Part shown: positions 5,601-55,330 of the stretch, piece after piece | How positions within the stretch are numbered: position 1 is the stretch's first letter | Layout: the number at the start of each line of letters is the position of its first letter | Assembly (NCBI GenBank): GCA_019096065.1 | Contig: JAGUCH010000002.1 | Coordinates: 632,501-696,500 of the forward strand | Length of the DNA: 64,000 nt | Source: Paracyclopina nana | Lineage: Eukaryota; Arthropoda; Copepoda; Cyclopoida; Cyclopettidae | Direction: 5' to 3' | Translations under genes and position numbers: made by a program | Notes under the pieces: model-generated | Seen by the model: only the letters and a program-made list of their open reading frames with translations | What the model was told of the DNA's origin: nothing | Database searches by the model: none

Positions 5601-8600
5601 GGCATGGACATTTGGGGTGGAGAGAACCTCGAAATGTCCTTCAGGGTGAGTATAACCAAGTGTTTGTGATTATTCGAGCTAGGCCAATGATCCCAAGTGG
5701 CAACTAGGTATGGCAATGTGGAGGAACCCTAGAAATTGTGCCCTGTTCACATGTGGGCCATGTGTTCAGAGACAAATCACCCTACACCTTTCCTGGTGGG
5801 GTGGCCAAAATTGTCAACAAAAATGCTGCCAGGGTAGCTGAAGTTTGGATGGATGAGTGGAGGGACTTTTATTATTCAATGAACCCAGGTTAGGACTGCT
5901 AACTAACAGAGCTAACAACTAACCAAAAGTGTTTTTGAGTGCTGTTTGTGTTTCCAATGCTTCTAGTGTAATAACCATCACTCTTTTCTCACAACTTGTG
6001 TGCCCAACACTCTGTTGTTAGAGCCTCCATTATTAGCTATCAATAATCACTAGTCCACTGTTCATCTGCGAAAAAAGACCTTTTAAGGAAAAAAACTAAC
6101 TTGCTTCAATGTCAGTAATTTAATGAATGCTTCATGACCTTGCTTTGGGTGCCTTTACCTGGTCCTACTACAGACCGCTTTTGGTCCAACTGTGACTGAC
6201 CTTACCTGGTCCTACAAGTCAGATAGTACTTTGAGCTACCATCATGACAGACATGTTCCTGTTAAAATACTATTTTTATTAAAACAAGGTATATTTTCTT
6301 TGGTTTGTAAAAAGCCACTTTTCATCGAAAAAGAAATCCTATCAGACATAGGTATTTACTCTGCTAGTAGGACATAGAAAGATCTTACTTGTAGTACCAA
6401 GTTCAATCTAACTTGTAGTACCAAGTTCAATCTAACTTGTAGTACCAAGTTCAATCTAACTTGTAATACCAAGTTCAATATAACTTGTAGGACCAGGTTC
6501 AATATAACTTGTAGTGCCAAGTTCGATCTAACTTGTAGTACCAAGTTCAATATAACTTGCAGGACCAAGTTCAATCTAACTTGTAGTACCAAGTTCTTTA
6601 TAACTTGTAGTGCCATGTTCGATCTAACTTGTAGTACCAAGTTCAATATAAGTTGTAGTACCAAGTTCGATCTAACTTTTAGTACTTTTAAAATCGACTT
6701 GATTTGTAGGACCAAGTTCGACCTGATTTGTAGGACCAGGTAAAGTCTGCCACAGAAAAACCAGTTACACTGCGTCACTGTACAACCAAGGACCTTGTAG
6801 GTCCAGGCTCTCTTTCGGTATACTTCTCATATTAGCTCACCAATTACCTTTTTAATGAGACCTTCAACTGTCTGATCTGCGTTCAGTTTGCTAGACTGAA
6901 ATTCACCTGAGTAGGTGCAAGTTTATTTGTGTATTACCAAGCTTTTCTGCCAATTCGCAGATGAACAATGCTTCTGTACTAATACATTTAGTCCACCTTA
7001 ACTTGGGAGCTTTGTAGATCAAAAGTAGGAGCAGATCTTAGTAGGACACTAGCTAGCTTAGAACATTAACCAGTTGTGTAGTAGGGTGATGGTGGTAACA
7101 TTTGCCTTTCAGGTGTGGATGTGTGGTGGTGAACTGATGATTGCCACCTGCTCACATGTGGGCCATGTCTTCCGAAAGTCCACCCCTTACACCTTTCCTG
7201 GGGGGACCTCAAAAATAGTTAACCACAACAATGCCAGACTGGCTGAAGTCTGGCTAGATGAGTGGAAAGAGTTCTATTTTAGCATCAACCCAGGTTAATT
7301 TAAACATCAACCAAAACTCAAGCATGCCCCTGTTTGTTTATGTAAAGAAACTTAGTTAGTGGTTATAGAAGCCTTTTTACTCTTCTTCCATACCTTTTTT
7401 TTCTTAAACACACTCACACTTATATTAATGCACTTACAATTGGAAACAAAAGATTGTTTGGCTTTTTTTCAAAGTGTTGGCTTCTTTTCTCTTCAAGGAG
7501 CCAGAAATGTGGACATTGGAGACCTGACTGCCAGAAAAGAGCTGAGGAAGAACATTCAGTGCAAGTCTTTTAGATGGTACCTGGAAAATGTCTACCCTGA
7601 ATCACAAATGCCCCTGGACTACTACTATCTTGGAGAGGTAAGTAAAGTACTTTACATACTTGGCAATATAAAGTCCCTTCAAGACTACTTCATACAATAT
7701 GCAGAGTTTCAAGCAGTTTTAAGAACATAATTTCAGGGTTTTGCATTTTACAGAGGGACATAAACTAAATTGCTCACAACTTGACAAGCCCCAGTGGGTG
7801 TACAGTTTATGTCCCTCTGTAAAATGCAAAACCCTGTATTTCTACAATCTTGGAGAGGTAAGTAAAGTACTTTTCTTCAATTTAAAGTACTTTACATACT
7901 TGGCAATATAAAGTCCCTTCTAGACTACTTTATGCAACATAAAGAGTTTCATGCAGTTTTAAGAGTAGAATTTCAGGGTTTTGCATTTTACAGAGGGACA
8001 TAAACTTTACACCCACTAGGGTTTGTAAAGTTGCCAGCTGTAATTGTTTTATTTTATTTTCAGATTAAAAATGATGGCACTCATAATTGCCTTGATACCA
8101 TGGGTCATAAAAGTGGAGAAGAAGTTGGCCTCAGTTACTGCCATGGCCTTGGTGGAAATCAGGTGAGATCACAACATCAGGCGAAACCAGGGATATTTAA
8201 GCAGCAGCTTTTCATTTTAGGTATTTGCCTATACCAAAAGGCAGCAAGTGATGTCAGATGACAATTGCTTGGATGCTGCCACACCCGACGGACCGGTTAA
8301 GCTTGTCCGCTGCCATGGCATGGGTGGAAACCAAGCATGGGTTTATAATGAAGACGTAAGTACATAAATTCGAGCGGAGCGACTCCTCTTTAAAAAAATA
8401 TATAGTAAATCCAAAATTGCTGTGCAACATTGTTAAAAATCAAAATATAAAGCAAATCCCAAGCATTAAATTGCTATGCAACATTATCAAAAAAGAAATA
8501 AGCAGATAAACCAGTTTTTCTTTTCTCTGCAATGTTGCTAAAAATATGCAAATTTTTAACCAAACTCAGTCCCTAAAAATTTCCGTTGAGTAACTTTTAG

Positions 8601-10061: not shown

Positions 10062-13000
10062 TTACAAGTTGCTGTTGTCAGCTTCTTCTTGTATTTTCTC
10101 TGAAGCTTCTTCTCTCATTTGTGGCTGCATTTGCTGTTGTCTGGCTTGAATGAACATGCCCACAACTTTGGCAATGTCTCCCATTTGCTTCAAAGCCAGC
10201 TCAAAGTTTTCATAGTCCAAGAAGGAGCTGCAGCCTTCAGCCTTCAGCCTTCTTTTCAGCAGCCTCAAAAAGGTCAGCCTGAGCTTGAGCAGTGGGAAAA
10301 GTTGTGGGTCACTCTCAAGGCCTGAGACATCCAGTAAAGTCATGAGACTGAGAAGCTTGAAGCAAATGTCATCCCTGACCAAATTGGTCACATGGCTCAA
10401 GCTGTCATAATACTGCCTCACAACATCTGGAGTCAACTGGTATTCTCCAACCTTGTCCATATAGGAGCCTTGAGTGTTCTCCAGCCAAGCAGGAATTTCC
10501 CTGAAAAAAATGTGAATTGGCAAGAAATTCCTTTTTTTATTACTAAGTGTCAAGTCTTGCTACAAAATGAAACCCTGTGACATTTTGACGACATTTCATC
10601 AATTTTCTTAAATGGACTTTTTTTAATAATATAAAATATATCACTTCAATGAGACTTGATTGTCAACCTGAAAAGTTAATTATGTAGCTGAATTTTAAAT
10701 TTAAATTTCATTAAATTAATGTTTTCTTTGACATTGAACAATTTTTGAGGACTTACAGGAAATCAATGTCATTGTAGGCAACAACTCATTTTACCAAAAA
10801 ATTATAAGTTAATTTAGTGAGGAACATCTCAAATCCAATATTAGAGCTCTTAGGCTTGAAAGTTAGCCTTCAATTTCAATTTATTTCATTACATTTTTTG
10901 ACTTTTTTAGCTATTTTTAAAGGACTTAAGAAGTACTTGTTTTCTTCTAAGTTACAAAGCATAGCATTGTTTTAATTGATGTTACTCAGTGGTTACTTTT
11001 TTCAATAAAAGGCTAAATCTTAAAATAGTAAGACTTTTAAGTTGAAACTGATCCTCCAGAAGTACATTTCCAACGGAATTTTCAAATTTTTCAGTTACTA
11101 AAAAGTTCTTAACAAGAACTGACTTACGGGAAATCCTGGAGCCAGTTGATTTTGGTGCCAACTCCTTCAACAAAGTAGAACATTTGCTCCAGAGCTGATT
11201 TGCAAGACTCCATTCGAACCACGAATAAAGCAATTGCTGACAAGTAGTTTTTCCTCCAAATCTGGGCTTTGAAGTCATGTGAGAGTTGCCTGAATTCTGG
11301 CTGAGCCACCAAAACCTGTCTGAACCTCTCACAAGTGGCTGCCATCACATTTGGCATGAAATCCTCAGACAGCCTAATTTTGATGGTGAAATGGTTCAAC
11401 AGCTGACTAATTAGAATGCCTGGCATTTTTTGCTTTTTGTAGCTCGCTTCAAACTTGAACAGCTGCTGATGCAGCCATCTTTCTTCAGTCTCAGTGTATG
11501 ACACTGACACTGTCATGGCAGTCAAACACTCGACCACACGTGAGTTTTCATCAGACCTGTTAAGAAAACAACTTGTTCAATAGTTAACATGCAACAAGAA
11601 CAAGTGGCGCCACCTATAAGCCAAAGGCGTAAAGTCGTTCGATTAAAAGCGCCATCTAGTGCGGCAACTTGAGCAAGTACATTTGACATGGCTGCGCTAC
11701 ATGGATGATCTAAAGTCGGCAATTGATTCGCTTCTGGAGCACTTATGCCGAAAACTTCATTCATACAACATAATCTTCGGATTAAATGTCACCCCTTTCA
11801 GACCATAAAGCTAAACGCAACTCACACAAATTTTCAAGCATTTCGTTGTTGAAACCAAATTATTCTAGCCTGGCTCCGCTGATCAGCTAATCAAATTGCC
11901 GCTCTTAATCACGTGACAAGCTTCGCGTGAGGCAGTTTTTCTCAAAACACTTGCTCGTAAAGCGCCATCTGTCGTAAAAGTTTGTCCCTCCACTGGCTTA
12001 TAGTCCTCTAATGAACATGAACGTTTCCAAAAAAAAATTGAGTAGTTTGTTCACCTTTTGGTCAGGCTGATCATGATGATGATCTAAAGTCGGCAATTGA
12101 TTCGCTTCTGGAACACTTATGCCGAAAACTTCATTTATACAACATAATCTTCGGATAAAATGGCACCCCTTTCAGACCATAAAGCTAAACACAACTCACA
12201 CAAATTTTCAAGCGTTTCGTTGTTGAAACCAAATTTTTCTAGCCTGGCTCCGCTGATCATCCAATCAAATTGCCGCTCTTAATCACGTGACAAGTTTCGC
12301 GTGAGGCAGTTTTTCTCAAAACACTTGCTCATAAAGCGCCATCTATCGTAAAAGTTAGTCCCTCCACTGGCTTATAGTGCTTACATCAACAAGAACGTTT
12401 CCAAACAAAATTGATTAGTATTCATAGTTAGTTCACCTTTTGGCCAGGCTGATCATGTTTCCTGGCCTGTTGAGGACATTGCTTGCCTCAAACACTTGCT
12501 CCATGCTCTGAAGAGCCTCAATCAGCTGGGGAACCCTGTCAACTCCAATGTCTTCCCTGAGATCATGGTAGCCAAACTTGAGCAGCCTCACACCCTCTTC
12601 ATGGATCTTGGCAATCCTCCTGGACTCCCTAAGGTTCATGTCATCAGTCTGGTGGAACAGAATGATGAAAGCAATCAAGCCCAAGTAGAAGTGGGGATGC
12701 TTGAAGAACCTTCCAATGAGGTCAATGGCATTTTTGTACTTGAGCAGCAGCCACTGGTCTTGGATCCTGAGGATGCTTTCGTTGAACTCTTCGAAGGCAA
12801 TGACCTTTAGGTGAGCCAGGTCATCGACAGTCGCTTTGGGGAGATTGGTGTCCAGGATCCAGGAGAGCTGGTCCAACCCAGTTGGAGCTGAAAAGTACCT
12901 GGACAAGAGGTACTGGCAAAAGAGGAAGGCATTGTGAGTCACCAGGATGGTCTTGTCTTCTTCGCAGAGGCTCTGGAACAAGGGCAATTGCTTGGCAAAT

Positions 13001-15223
13001 CTGGTGTAAGCTGTGACCAAGCTGCAGAGGTGCATGGTGAAGCTGTCTAAGCTGACTTGGCTGGAAGAGATCTCCCCCATGTGGAGCAGCATGATGTTGT
13101 CCCTGAATTGGCTGCACACATCCAGGTCTGACATGGCCAGAACATAGATCTGGAGCAAAGGTTCAAAATTGGCATTAAGTAAGGTTGGCAAGGTTGCTTA
13201 CCTCAAGGATTTGAGCAATTTGAGACTGATCTGTGGCTGAATGGCATGACAAGTTGGTAGATGTGGATGAGGCTCTGTCAGAATCTTCAGGTGAGTCCTC
13301 AGCTGGCTCATTTTTGACCACCTCCAGACTAGGAATCAACCTAGGGCAAGGTTGAACAGGTTGGTGATTATGCAATTGCTCAAGGACCACAGGGTAAGAT
13401 ATTTCATGAGTCTCCTGCTTAATGTGTGGAACAGATGTTGATGACTGGTGCTGATTATTATGCCAATGGTCATTGTAGGTGTGTCTGGAACATGAAGGAG
13501 AAATTCATTTATGGAATTTTTTTTTTAAATTCATTTTAAAGTCATTTGGTGAAAAGGGCTTTTCACATCCAGTGACATTTGCCAGCCAGCTTTTGATGAA
13601 AATTGCCCTTGGCAATTTCTTATTGTGCAACTTTGCGAAGCCAAAAATTCTTTACAAATAAGATGTCGCAAAAAGCAATCTTCTGATGGAAAATGAACCA
13701 GCCAAGAGCTTTCATTAGCATTAATTTAATTCTTAACTGTAAGCTCAACAAATTGAATACATTTACTAACTGAAACCGGTTTTACTTGAGAGTAATTCAC
13801 TTTGCCAGTTGACTCAGCCTTTTTGCATTCCCAATGCTATTTGAAGTGAATGAAAACCCTGGGGATATTTTTTACTGAGCTTATGGTAAATAAAAAGCCC
13901 TAGGGGTAATTTTTACTTAATGGTAAATAAAAACCTTCTAAGCAGTCCGGAAAAGCAAAAGACAACAGTATCATAACAAAGACATACCATCTACTGACAT
14001 TTTTGAAGAAACACTTGGAAGTTGAGTTCAAAATCACATTTCGCTTTGAGAAAGCGAGCCACTTTTTCAGGGCAAATATTGATTATAAGTTGTTGCTTTG
14101 ATTTAACTGATGCTCAGCATCAGGACTCTTGACATCTTGATATTTTTTATATAACGATTATTATAGACTTAAAACCATTCTGGCTTAGCGTCAAGAAGAA
14201 TGCTTTCATAAGTTTGATTACACTAATTTGCTTGGGCCTTTATTACGTACTACTACTCGAGTCGCAAAAACGTGGCAGCTCAGTGTTTTTTCTCAAGCAG
14301 TGTCAGCTGAGAATCCCAGATGTTGCCTAAAAAGGCCGCTGGGATCGCCCTACGCCAATGTTATTGTTATGACACTAATGTGAATTTCCTCTTGACAATG
14401 ATTAAAAATTGCGACTTATTTGGCCTTACCTATGCCTAGCATAGACGGATCTCATTTGGCTTTGCTCCATCAGGTGAGTGGCAACAAATGAGCTGAGTCT
14501 CTTTGGATTGGGGTGGATTCTCCGGATGTTCCCCCTCAGAAGGTCATTGGAACTGAGCATATGCTCATAGTGAGAGGATCTTCTCATTGTGTGCATGAGC
14601 TGGCTGCATTGATGAATGGCAGCCTCAATGTTGCCCTGCCTGGTTTGCTCTCCTATAACTGGTCTCTTCTGAGTCATGGCACCAATCTGCTCAGCCCTTC
14701 TAGCATAGGGGTCATTGTCCCAGACTGACTTGGCCAATGTCTGGTGTTGGTGGTTGACTTGCTGGTCTTCACTTGGACTGGTCTTCTTCTTCTTGAGGTA
14801 ATTCCTGAACCTGACCTTCTTCTGCTCAGTGGTGAGCACCCACCTGGCATCCATGCCAATTCGCAGGCACCTGGCATACCTGCATTTCTGGCACTTCCTC
14901 CTGTTCTTCACTGTGATCTCACAATTGCCTCCAGACTTGCACTCAAACATGGGGCATTTGGTGGACTGGTGGGCTCTTCTAAAGAAGGCTCTGCAGCTGT
15001 AGCAGCAAATGCCTCCATAATGCAAATGGTGCTTGTCATCCTCAGGTGCCAGCTAAAAAGAGGAAATTATGGATATCCTTGGCAGAAGAGAGGTGAAGGC
15101 ACTATTTACCTCTGAGCAAATGGCACAGATCCTCTCTGCTCTGGATATGTCCCTTGGATCCATCCTCAGCAGTGCCATTTCCATGGACTGAGGCAAAGGC
15201 TGCTGCATTGCATACCCAGTCAT
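10062..15223 (-). CDS. Orphan nuclear receptor with two LBD-like domains in tandem
   Basis: Exons on the minus strand are 15223-15110, 15052-14430, 13484-13202, 13149-12437, 11556-11128 and 10500-10062. They total 2601 nt, giving 866 aa. ATG 15223 follows two in-frame TAG codons. The DNA-binding domain (about residues 32-105) has two C4 zinc fingers split by intron 1. Finger 1 reads CAIC...CYSCRAFFRR with a longer than usual loop, and finger 2 is C-x5-C-x9-C-x2-C followed by RYARCLRIGM. A hinge runs to about 340. Exon 4 (341-578) looks like a complete ligand-binding domain with the LBD signature FAKQLPLFQSLCEEDKTILV at about 391. Exons 5-6 (579-866) look like a second one, with FRQVLVAQPEFRQLSHDF at about 656. 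It should be a nuclear ligand-responsive or constitutive transcription factor; the ligand is unknown. No clear AF-2 core is seen at either domain end. The closest named subfamily was not determined. Confidence 0.85.
11704..12457 (-). repeat. Tandem duplication (about 375 bp x2) in nuclear receptor intron 4
   Basis: Unit 11704-12076 is repeated at 12078-12457 with few differences. The right-hand end of each unit contains the final 21 nt of exon 4 plus its GTGAAC donor. The left unit therefore carries a decoy exon tail and donor at about 12050-12076 inside the intron. Both units contain AAAGCGCCATCT and CACGTGAC. Confidence 0.88.
13768..13945. mobile_element. Relic of the GALNT-intron inverted-repeat element
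   Basis: The left end, CTGAAACCGGTTTTACTTGA followed by GTAATTCACTTTGCCA, matches the ends of the elements at 3169 and 4825. The right half is missing or replaced. It lies in nuclear receptor intron 2. Confidence 0.5.
13967..14376. mobile_element. Short non-autonomous element with AGTATCATAACAA ends, copy b (inverted)
   Basis: It starts AGTATCATAACAAAG and ends ATTGTTATGACACT. The interior contains GAAACACTTGGAAGTTGAG and GGGATCGCCCTACG, the reverse complement of copy a. It is inserted in nuclear receptor intron 2. Confidence 0.8.
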
Positions 15224-49342: not shown

Positions 49343-49414
49343 TCCGGCATGGTCTAGGGGTTAGGATAGCTGGCTCTCACCCAGCAGGCCCGGGTTCGAT
49401 TCCCGGTGCCGGAA
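49343..49414 (+). tRNA. tRNA-Glu (anticodon CTC)
   Basis: The 72-nt cloverleaf has acceptor arms TCCGGCA / TGCCGGA and anticodon stem CTGG / CCAG around loop CTCTCAC, placing CTC at the anticodon. The T arm is CCGGG / CCCGG with GTTCGATT. An internal B box (GGTTCGATTCC) is present and a run of T follows within 5 nt as a Pol III stop. It is identical to the two minus-strand copies at 54126 and 55259. Confidence 0.98.
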
Positions 49415-54125: not shown

Positions 54126-54197
54126 TTCCGGCACCGGGAATCGAACCCGGGCCTGCTGGGTGAGAGCCAGCTATCCTAACCCCTAGACCATGCCGGA
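54126..54197 (-). tRNA. tRNA-Glu (anticodon CTC), copy 2
   Basis: The 72-nt sequence is identical to the gene at 49343-49414, on the opposite strand. Downstream on the minus strand a TTTT run serves as Pol III terminator. Confidence 0.97.
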
Positions 54198-55258: not shown

Positions 55259-55330
55259 TTCCGGCACCGGGAATCGAACCCGGGCCTGCTGGGTGAGAGC
55301 CAGCTATCCTAACCCCTAGACCATGCCGGA
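55259..55330 (-). tRNA. tRNA-Glu (anticodon CTC), copy 3
   Basis: The 72-nt sequence is identical to the copies at 49343 and 54126. A T-run lies immediately downstream on the minus strand (complement of the A-run before 55259). Confidence 0.97.

Follow-up and report, generated by a model that had tools for sequence, protein, structure and literature searches.

Can a single nuclear-receptor polypeptide carry two ligand-binding domains? The question is raised by a minus-strand gene at positions 15223-10062 of a 64,000-nucleotide (nt) stretch of the Paracyclopina nana genome (GenBank assembly GCA_019096065.1, contig JAGUCH010000002.1, positions 632,501 to 696,500), hereafter the window (G000:C2:632501-696500 in the genome searches). 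By current descriptions, each nuclear-receptor chain has one ligand-binding domain (LBD), and the dimerisation of LBDs from different chains is central to receptor function. In the window gene, a single DNA-binding domain (DBD) and a hinge are followed by two regions, LBD1 and LBD2, which the initial annotation had interpreted as two tandem LBDs. This interpretation is supported by the domain order at 24 of 26 loci in the genome, a paralogue encoding the whole series in one frame of 580 amino acids, homology between LBD2 and the LBD of a related receptor (L081), and an AlphaFold model of the paralogue. Based on this evidence, the gene probably encodes one polypeptide of the order DBD-hinge-LBD1-LBD2, in which an intragenic tandem duplication of the LBD preceded a lineage-specific expansion of the family to about 25 genes; a probability of roughly 0.85 is assigned to this reading. 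The domain order, the homology that links the halves with one another and with the related receptor's LBD, their joint divergence and the constraint on both are regarded as established at the level of sequence and structural prediction.

The gene model and its paralogues

Six minus-strand exons joined across five GT-AG introns give 866 codons, with the frame kept throughout and a stop at 10062. Exon 1 (15110..15223) holds the start codon, at a 5' end that is uncertain, and the first DBD cysteines, and ends at a GT donor. In the splice model, exon 2 (14430..15052) completes the C4 zinc-finger DBD and leads into the hinge, which exon 3 (13202..13484) continues. LBD1, about residues 341-578, is encoded by exon 4 (12437..13149), and LBD2, about residues 579-866, by exon 5 (11128..11556; N-terminal half, with an H1-like W motif and the signature stretch) and exon 6 (10062..10500; C-terminal half and stop codon). 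Paralogues agree with the splice model for exons 5 and 6, as do profile comparisons for exon 5. The six-exon, 866-residue model proposed earlier, including its assignment of exon 4 and of exons 5-6, was thus reproduced, and the peptides quoted from it sit where it had placed them. The Pfam model zf-C4 (PF00105) recognises the DBD (residues 32-106) above its cut-off, with an E-value (E) of 6.9e-15, and the domain provides the C4-type double zinc finger of a nuclear receptor. It is the only PF00105 stretch in the protein, which therefore lacks the two tandem DBDs of the 2DBD class.

Intron 4 (11557..12436) separates LBD1 from LBD2. The intron contains a 300-nt direct duplication (96%; 11704-12003 and 12078-12377), and a short stretch resembling the end of exon 4 lies at about 12050-12077, just ahead of the second copy. 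Inverted repeat pairs lie at 9508-9712/14207-14411 (85%) and 9783-9941/13954-14112 (83%); each has an arm beyond the 3' end of the gene and a second within intron 2, and they look like a dispersed element.

The genome searched comprises 92 Mb in 10 contigs, nine of them 6 to 18 Mb long, and the counts of stretches are lower bounds. With LBD1 as query, at least 33 stretches were recovered at E<=0.1, one of them that of the window itself. A search with LBD2 recovered three paralogues (E 8e-15 to 5e-14), each downstream of DBD and LBD1 matches on the same strand, and LBD2 queries from the big group of paralogues recovered at least 21 and at least 16 stretches. A script linked LBD1 stretches to the closest DBD match upstream on the same strand; in the resulting recount, 24 of 26 LBD1 loci had a DBD upstream and an LBD2 downstream on the same strand. 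Incomplete loci also occur. Of the two LBD1 loci outside the 24, C4:3934185 combines LBD1 with an initial part of LBD2 but lacks a DBD match, and the other, C8:5131541, is described below. The locus at C9:2653456, which looks truncated, has LBD2 and a partial DBD match without an LBD1 match.

The alternative that the receptor stops after LBD1, with exons 5-6 transcribed separately or as part of a neighbouring gene, would reduce the two-LBD layout to an artefact of the gene model. Three observations could be cited for it. An in-frame ATG precedes the W motif in the exon 5 frame, and the gene at C8:5131541 has a DBD and LBD1, but about 3.6 kb of sequence following LBD1 yielded no LBD2. In the window's subgroup, which comprises the genes of the window, C3:10252430, C3:6035398, C1:8043720 and C1:8660115, LBD1 and LBD2 are separated by introns or frame changes. 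Because of this separation, the join of exons 4 and 5 in the window gene is one that we infer from splice sites, phase and kinship. Against the artefact stands the paralogue at C2:1822241-1823980, in which a continuous reading frame of 580 codons takes in DBD, LBD1 and LBD2 and shows no trace of the intron that its relatives have at this position. Because all three domains are encoded there in a single frame, the layout as such does not arise from gene modelling. The order at 24 of the 26 loci and the co-divergence of the two halves (r 0.82, see below) also speak against the artefact, as do the compatible, phase 2 junction of exons 4 and 5 in the window gene and the absence of an exact minus-strand AATAAA from intron 4. 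Overall, a split into two transcripts is considered very improbable.

Long frames also occur in further genes. A frame of 597 codons at C2:3684710 includes about 20 codons that resemble a short in-frame intron. In 13 others, the latter half of LBD1 is continuous with LBD2 in a single frame of 361-409 codons (C9:1422019, two genes at C2:1307229, C3:3706561, C3:7931359, C4:7111664, C4:7156738, C8:6229344, C9:2009901, C9:2025430, C9:5968421, C7:5059312 and C8:1264920). LBD1 of the big group is interrupted by a short intron at the same place in the 14 junctions examined, nine of which span 52-65 nt and five 137-345 nt between the markers used.

Two loci have additional copies. The stretch C9:2009901-2014024 (L041, L039) appears to contain a DBD, two LBD1 copies and an LBD2, and a 322-codon frame joins the end of one LBD1 to the start of the next. 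The homologous short intron is present in both LBD1 copies of this gene (C9:2010926), which on sequence is likely to be of the form DBD-LBD-LBD-LBD, with three LBDs. At C9:1425994-1427133 (L053, L056), a second exon encoding the C-terminal part of LBD1 and LBD2 (380 codons, with an apparent AG acceptor) follows the first after about 240 nt. Between the two copies of this 3' exon there is no further match to a DBD or to the N-terminal part of LBD1, and the duplicate is a candidate mutually exclusive exon.

The identity of LBD2

LBD1 occupies the position of a nuclear-receptor LBD, C-terminal to the DBD, and is recognised as such by PF00104, DAF-12, the family profile and the paralogue model, in agreement with its genome paralogues and tree position. 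The individual matches are weak. LBD1 matches PF00104 at E 0.017, under the curated cut-off, and among PDB sequences it finds DAF-12 (E 0.009 and 0.016) and VDR (0.2-0.9), all behind a repeat protein at 0.0034. The initial annotation had held that a single PF00104 domain would speak against two LBDs. Pfam returned only the sub-cut-off match to LBD1; with LBD1 weak and LBD2 without any match, Pfam alone would have failed the two-LBD layout, and the count of Pfam domains is therefore judged to misfire as a test, while the layout it was meant to probe stands on the other evidence.

One line of evidence for LBD2 is homology to another receptor of this genome. The receptor L081 (DBD at C8:5531092) has a single LBD stretch in the 5.5 kb read. 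For this LBD, PF00104 gives E 0.0033 (positions 15-201 of 213), under the curated cut-off, and a second receptor, C7:4417077, behaves similarly (0.001, positions 15-206, likewise under the cut-off). Compared with the paralogues, the L081 LBD reaches E 5.6e-14 (residues 10-240) with the LBD2 encoded by the C3:10252430 gene (C3:10253675) and E 6.6e-7 with that encoded by the C1:8043720 gene (C1:8045382). These two LBD2s in turn match that of the window at 4.3e-18 and 5.5e-18, respectively, and a hidden Markov model (HMM) of the subgroup's LBD2, the window's row included, reaches L081 at 2.5e-19. A profile of three LBD2 rows with L081 also finds DAF-12 in the PDB, at 4.1e-5, 6e-5 and 4.4e-4. DAF-12 is thus a nuclear-receptor match both for LBD1 and for the LBD2 profile that includes L081, and VDR for LBD1; in contrast to the window protein, DAF-12 and VDR have one LBD per chain.

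The two halves are also related to each other. In local hhalign comparisons, the subgroup to which the window gene belongs shows a collinear alignment of its LBD1 profile with its LBD2 profile over 174 columns (probability 95.7%, E 1e-8), and similar results were obtained for subgroup LBD1 with big-group LBD2 (92.9%, E 3.8e-7) and for all rows (93.0%, E 3.4e-7). For each comparison, none of 60 column-shuffled profiles matched the real LBD1-LBD2 score. In global mode, the all-rows score was equalled by 3 of 150 shuffles and the scores of the other four pairs by none of 150. The LBD2 profiles of the two groups align with each other locally at 96.9% (E 1.9e-10, 0 of 40 shuffles). In the global profile alignment, FRQVLVAQPEFRQLSHDF of LBD2 falls on the LBD signature stretch of LBD1, and the W of TETEERWLHQQL is kept in at least 90% of the 16 aligned LBD2 rows. 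A profile of canonical LBDs to which C7:4417077 had been added gave 46-91% for LBD1 and 0.6-45% for LBD2.

Several other comparisons gave no usable link. The L081 LBD alone found no receptor in the PDB, only Huntingtin-interacting protein 1. With the 16-row LBD2 profile, a PDB chain named HALC3_109 (E 0.017) ranked ahead of DAF-12 (E 0.12). The receptor C1:8915719 matched neither the LBD1 nor the LBD2 profile in global mode, and a scan of IMG/VR with an LBD1 stretch gave 26 pattern matches and no relatives.

For structure prediction, residues 113-580 of the frame at C2:1822241 were modelled with an alignment of 30 rows, all of them pieces of uninterrupted frames. The AlphaFold model has a mean predicted local distance difference test score (pLDDT) of 83.6 and a predicted template modelling score (pTM) of 0.63. 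Its first half (residues 3-226) contains 13 helices and its second half (244-467) contains 10. In both halves, the long helices follow a matching order and have similar lengths, and the extra helices of the first half are turns of four residues. The linking residues 228-238 form the sole segment with a pLDDT below 50. In a Foldseek search of the PDB, the best 50 of 1096 matches are all described as nuclear-receptor LBDs. By extension from the paralogue, both halves of the window protein itself would be predicted to fold as LBDs.

A number of results weigh against the two-LBD reading. At the level of direct detection, LBD2 of the window protein has no match in Pfam at all, PF00104 is absent from all 16 LBD2 rows searched, and no receptor appears among the matches of LBD2 to PDB sequences. 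A four-row profile of the subgroup's LBD2 without L081 found only occludin chains in the PDB (E about 0.1). With phmmer, up to E 10, L081 has no direct match to the window's own LBD2, so that the link runs via the paralogues, and big-group LBD2 hardly reaches L081 (HMM 0.57; profile-profile 0.1%, no match). Within the big group, the LBD1-LBD2 comparison is weak (10.4%, E 0.003; 0 of 60 shuffles). A profile of four canonical LBDs (two SVP, RXR and HR78) gives 7-11% with LBD1 and at most 0.5% with LBD2. Phylogenetically, LBD1 of the window groups with the big group (99/97) and its LBD2 with its own subgroup (87/95, on a long branch); these discordant positions mean that the two halves do not place the window gene alike. 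As for the fold, residues of about 111-160 of the paralogue model have a pLDDT of 51-69, the best Foldseek E is 0.012, with none at or below 0.001 and the output silent on which half aligned, and an AlphaFold model of the window LBD2 made without an alignment had a pLDDT of 44 and was discarded. Overall, its homology to the L081 LBD and to LBD1, together with the paralogue model, identifies LBD2 at the level of sequence and predicted fold as a true nuclear-receptor LBD.

Origin of the two halves and possible functions

The order in which the halves arose was addressed with an IQ-TREE phylogeny of 45 LBDs, whose rows are very divergent and in part on long branches. All 20 LBD1 rows form one clade (98/96). 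On the other side of the tree are LBD2, two single LBDs and four canonical LBDs, and the LBD2 rows need two changes. Since the LBD1 clade stands apart from ordinary LBDs, LBD1 looks like the added copy. It is therefore likely, on this tree, that the C-terminal LBD2 is the original LBD and that LBD1 was inserted between the hinge and LBD2. An intragenic tandem duplication would then have come first, and the lineage-specific expansion to about 25 genes would have followed.

Since their duplication, both halves appear to have evolved under constraint and together. The LBD1 and LBD2 distances correlate with r 0.82 over 19 genes and r 0.80 over the 15 big-group genes, and none of 5000 permutations equalled either value. 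Ratios of nonsynonymous to synonymous divergence (dN/dS, NG86) for LBD1/LBD2 are 0.23/0.17 in the closest gene pair and 0.17/0.11 and 0.28/0.34 in two others, all rough figures with dS above 1. In a fourth pair LBD1 is saturated (dS 4.0) and LBD2 has a dN/dS of 0.14.

These values bear on the suggestion that only LBD1 is a functional LBD and that the C-terminal half is an LBD-derived helical surface for dimerisation or cofactors, without ligand binding. In favour of this suggestion, LBD2 is too divergent for Pfam in 16 of 16 rows, and a pattern for activation function 2 (AF-2) has no match in the window protein, a weak observation given that the pattern also misses the control rows (two SVP and one RXR). 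However, LBD2 has the lower dN/dS in two of the three comparable pairs and the higher in the third, with roughly estimated values of 0.11-0.34 throughout; the paralogue model retains the main helix series in LBD2; and LBD2 sits with single and canonical LBDs in the tree. A purely structural C-terminal half is considered rather unlikely, as is, more generally, the loss of ligand binding from one of the two halves. To the limited extent that the AF-2 pattern is informative, the lack of an obvious motif would fit repression or non-classical coactivation.

If both halves are LBDs, they may pack as a covalent pair in cis, replacing or competing with the usual LBD dimer partner, while the single DBD contacts DNA and one or both LBD pockets gate transcription. 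The two LBDs of each chain would in that case form a ligand-gated pseudo-dimer in place of an RXR-type or homodimer-type partner. The retention of both halves at 24 of 26 loci and the restriction of low confidence (pLDDT under 50) to the short linker of the model are consistent with such a pair. However, the pTM of the model is 0.63, and an ordinary partner seems to be available, as the genome contains a gene with what is presumably an RXR-type DBD. The cis pair, with or without ligand gating, is considered less likely than not. Alternatively, the tethered second LBD could add a second regulatory input; two independent modules, serving either as two inputs or as one sensor and one docking platform, are a reasonable possibility, if one still short of even odds. 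A broader and speculative proposal is that the family constitutes a new class of DBD-LBD-LBD receptors (in one gene DBD-LBD-LBD-LBD), with about 25 genes in one arthropod, whose LBDs form a built-in single-chain dimer that integrates two inputs. The second exon for the C-terminal part of LBD1 and LBD2 at C9:1422019 would then make the output half exchangeable through alternative splicing.

Relation to known receptors and other features of the genome

The legend of Figure 1A in PMC10497141 distinguishes four modular types of nuclear receptors: DBD+LBD, DBD only, LBD only and 2DBD+LBD. The DBD+LBD+LBD layout fits none of them. The 2DBD receptors described there resemble the window gene in having one domain duplicated in tandem, but there the doubled domain is the DBD, next to a single LBD, whereas the window gene has two LBDs behind one DBD. 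No report of a nuclear receptor with tandem LBDs was found among the matches listed from the open-licence PMC literature, covered mostly by titles and the beginnings of abstracts, and the passages on nuclear receptors in PMC8363021, PMC7827873 and PMC6599367 do not mention a second LBD.

The closest parallels by description are the crustacean NR1L/HR97 receptors, which in the excerpts of PMC4247118 include Daphnia HR97a, b and g, 12 members each in Tigriopus japonicus and T. californicus, and 8 in Paracyclopina nana. They likewise represent a lineage-specific expansion of divergent NR1-type crustacean receptors with strongly diverged LBDs, but each has a DBD and an LBD, and the text of those excerpts leaves a second LBD unmentioned (PMC4247118). 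Similarly, the decapod HR97-like MAR receptors are NR1-type proteins with LBDs too diverged for strong domain prediction (MAR3 LBD, E 1e-3 to 1e-6); unlike the window gene, they have an LBD per transcript, a second one being unreported in the passages concerned (PMC6599367). The TGF-beta receptors, as described in part of PMC13187141, also have a ligand-binding domain duplicated inside the receptor but belong to an unrelated cell-surface family.

An expanded two-LBD family would provide a natural test of an LBD dimer built into one polypeptide, of the relaxing of partner and AF-2 rules, and of the evolution of lineage-specific receptor sets. Because Pfam-based domain counts miss DBD-LBD-LBD, the layout could sit unannotated in other arthropods.

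Elsewhere in the genome, translations of DBD genes resemble Knirps-type, EcR, RXR, HNF4, SVP, FTZ-F1-like and other receptors, names that we assign by recognition. The combination of Knirps-type and EcR genes points to an arthropod, and genome size and the NR1L expansion reported in copepods (PMC4247118) suggest, as a guess, a copepod-like crustacean. The translated genes include two presumed Knirps-type DBD genes at C1:8885457 and C1:8902289 (L014, L015), about 17 kb apart and in opposite orientation, and three genes at C1:9.79-9.83 Mb that we take to be SVP-like. Within the window, a 24-nt unit is repeated 12.7 times in tandem at positions 6382-6685, adjoined by exons whose translations resemble, as we read them, polypeptide GalNAc-transferase. 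What appears from its translation to be the start of an Hsp70-like gene lies on the plus strand from about 17909, and three tRNA-Glu(CTC) genes are located at 49343-49414, 54126-54197 and 55259-55330.

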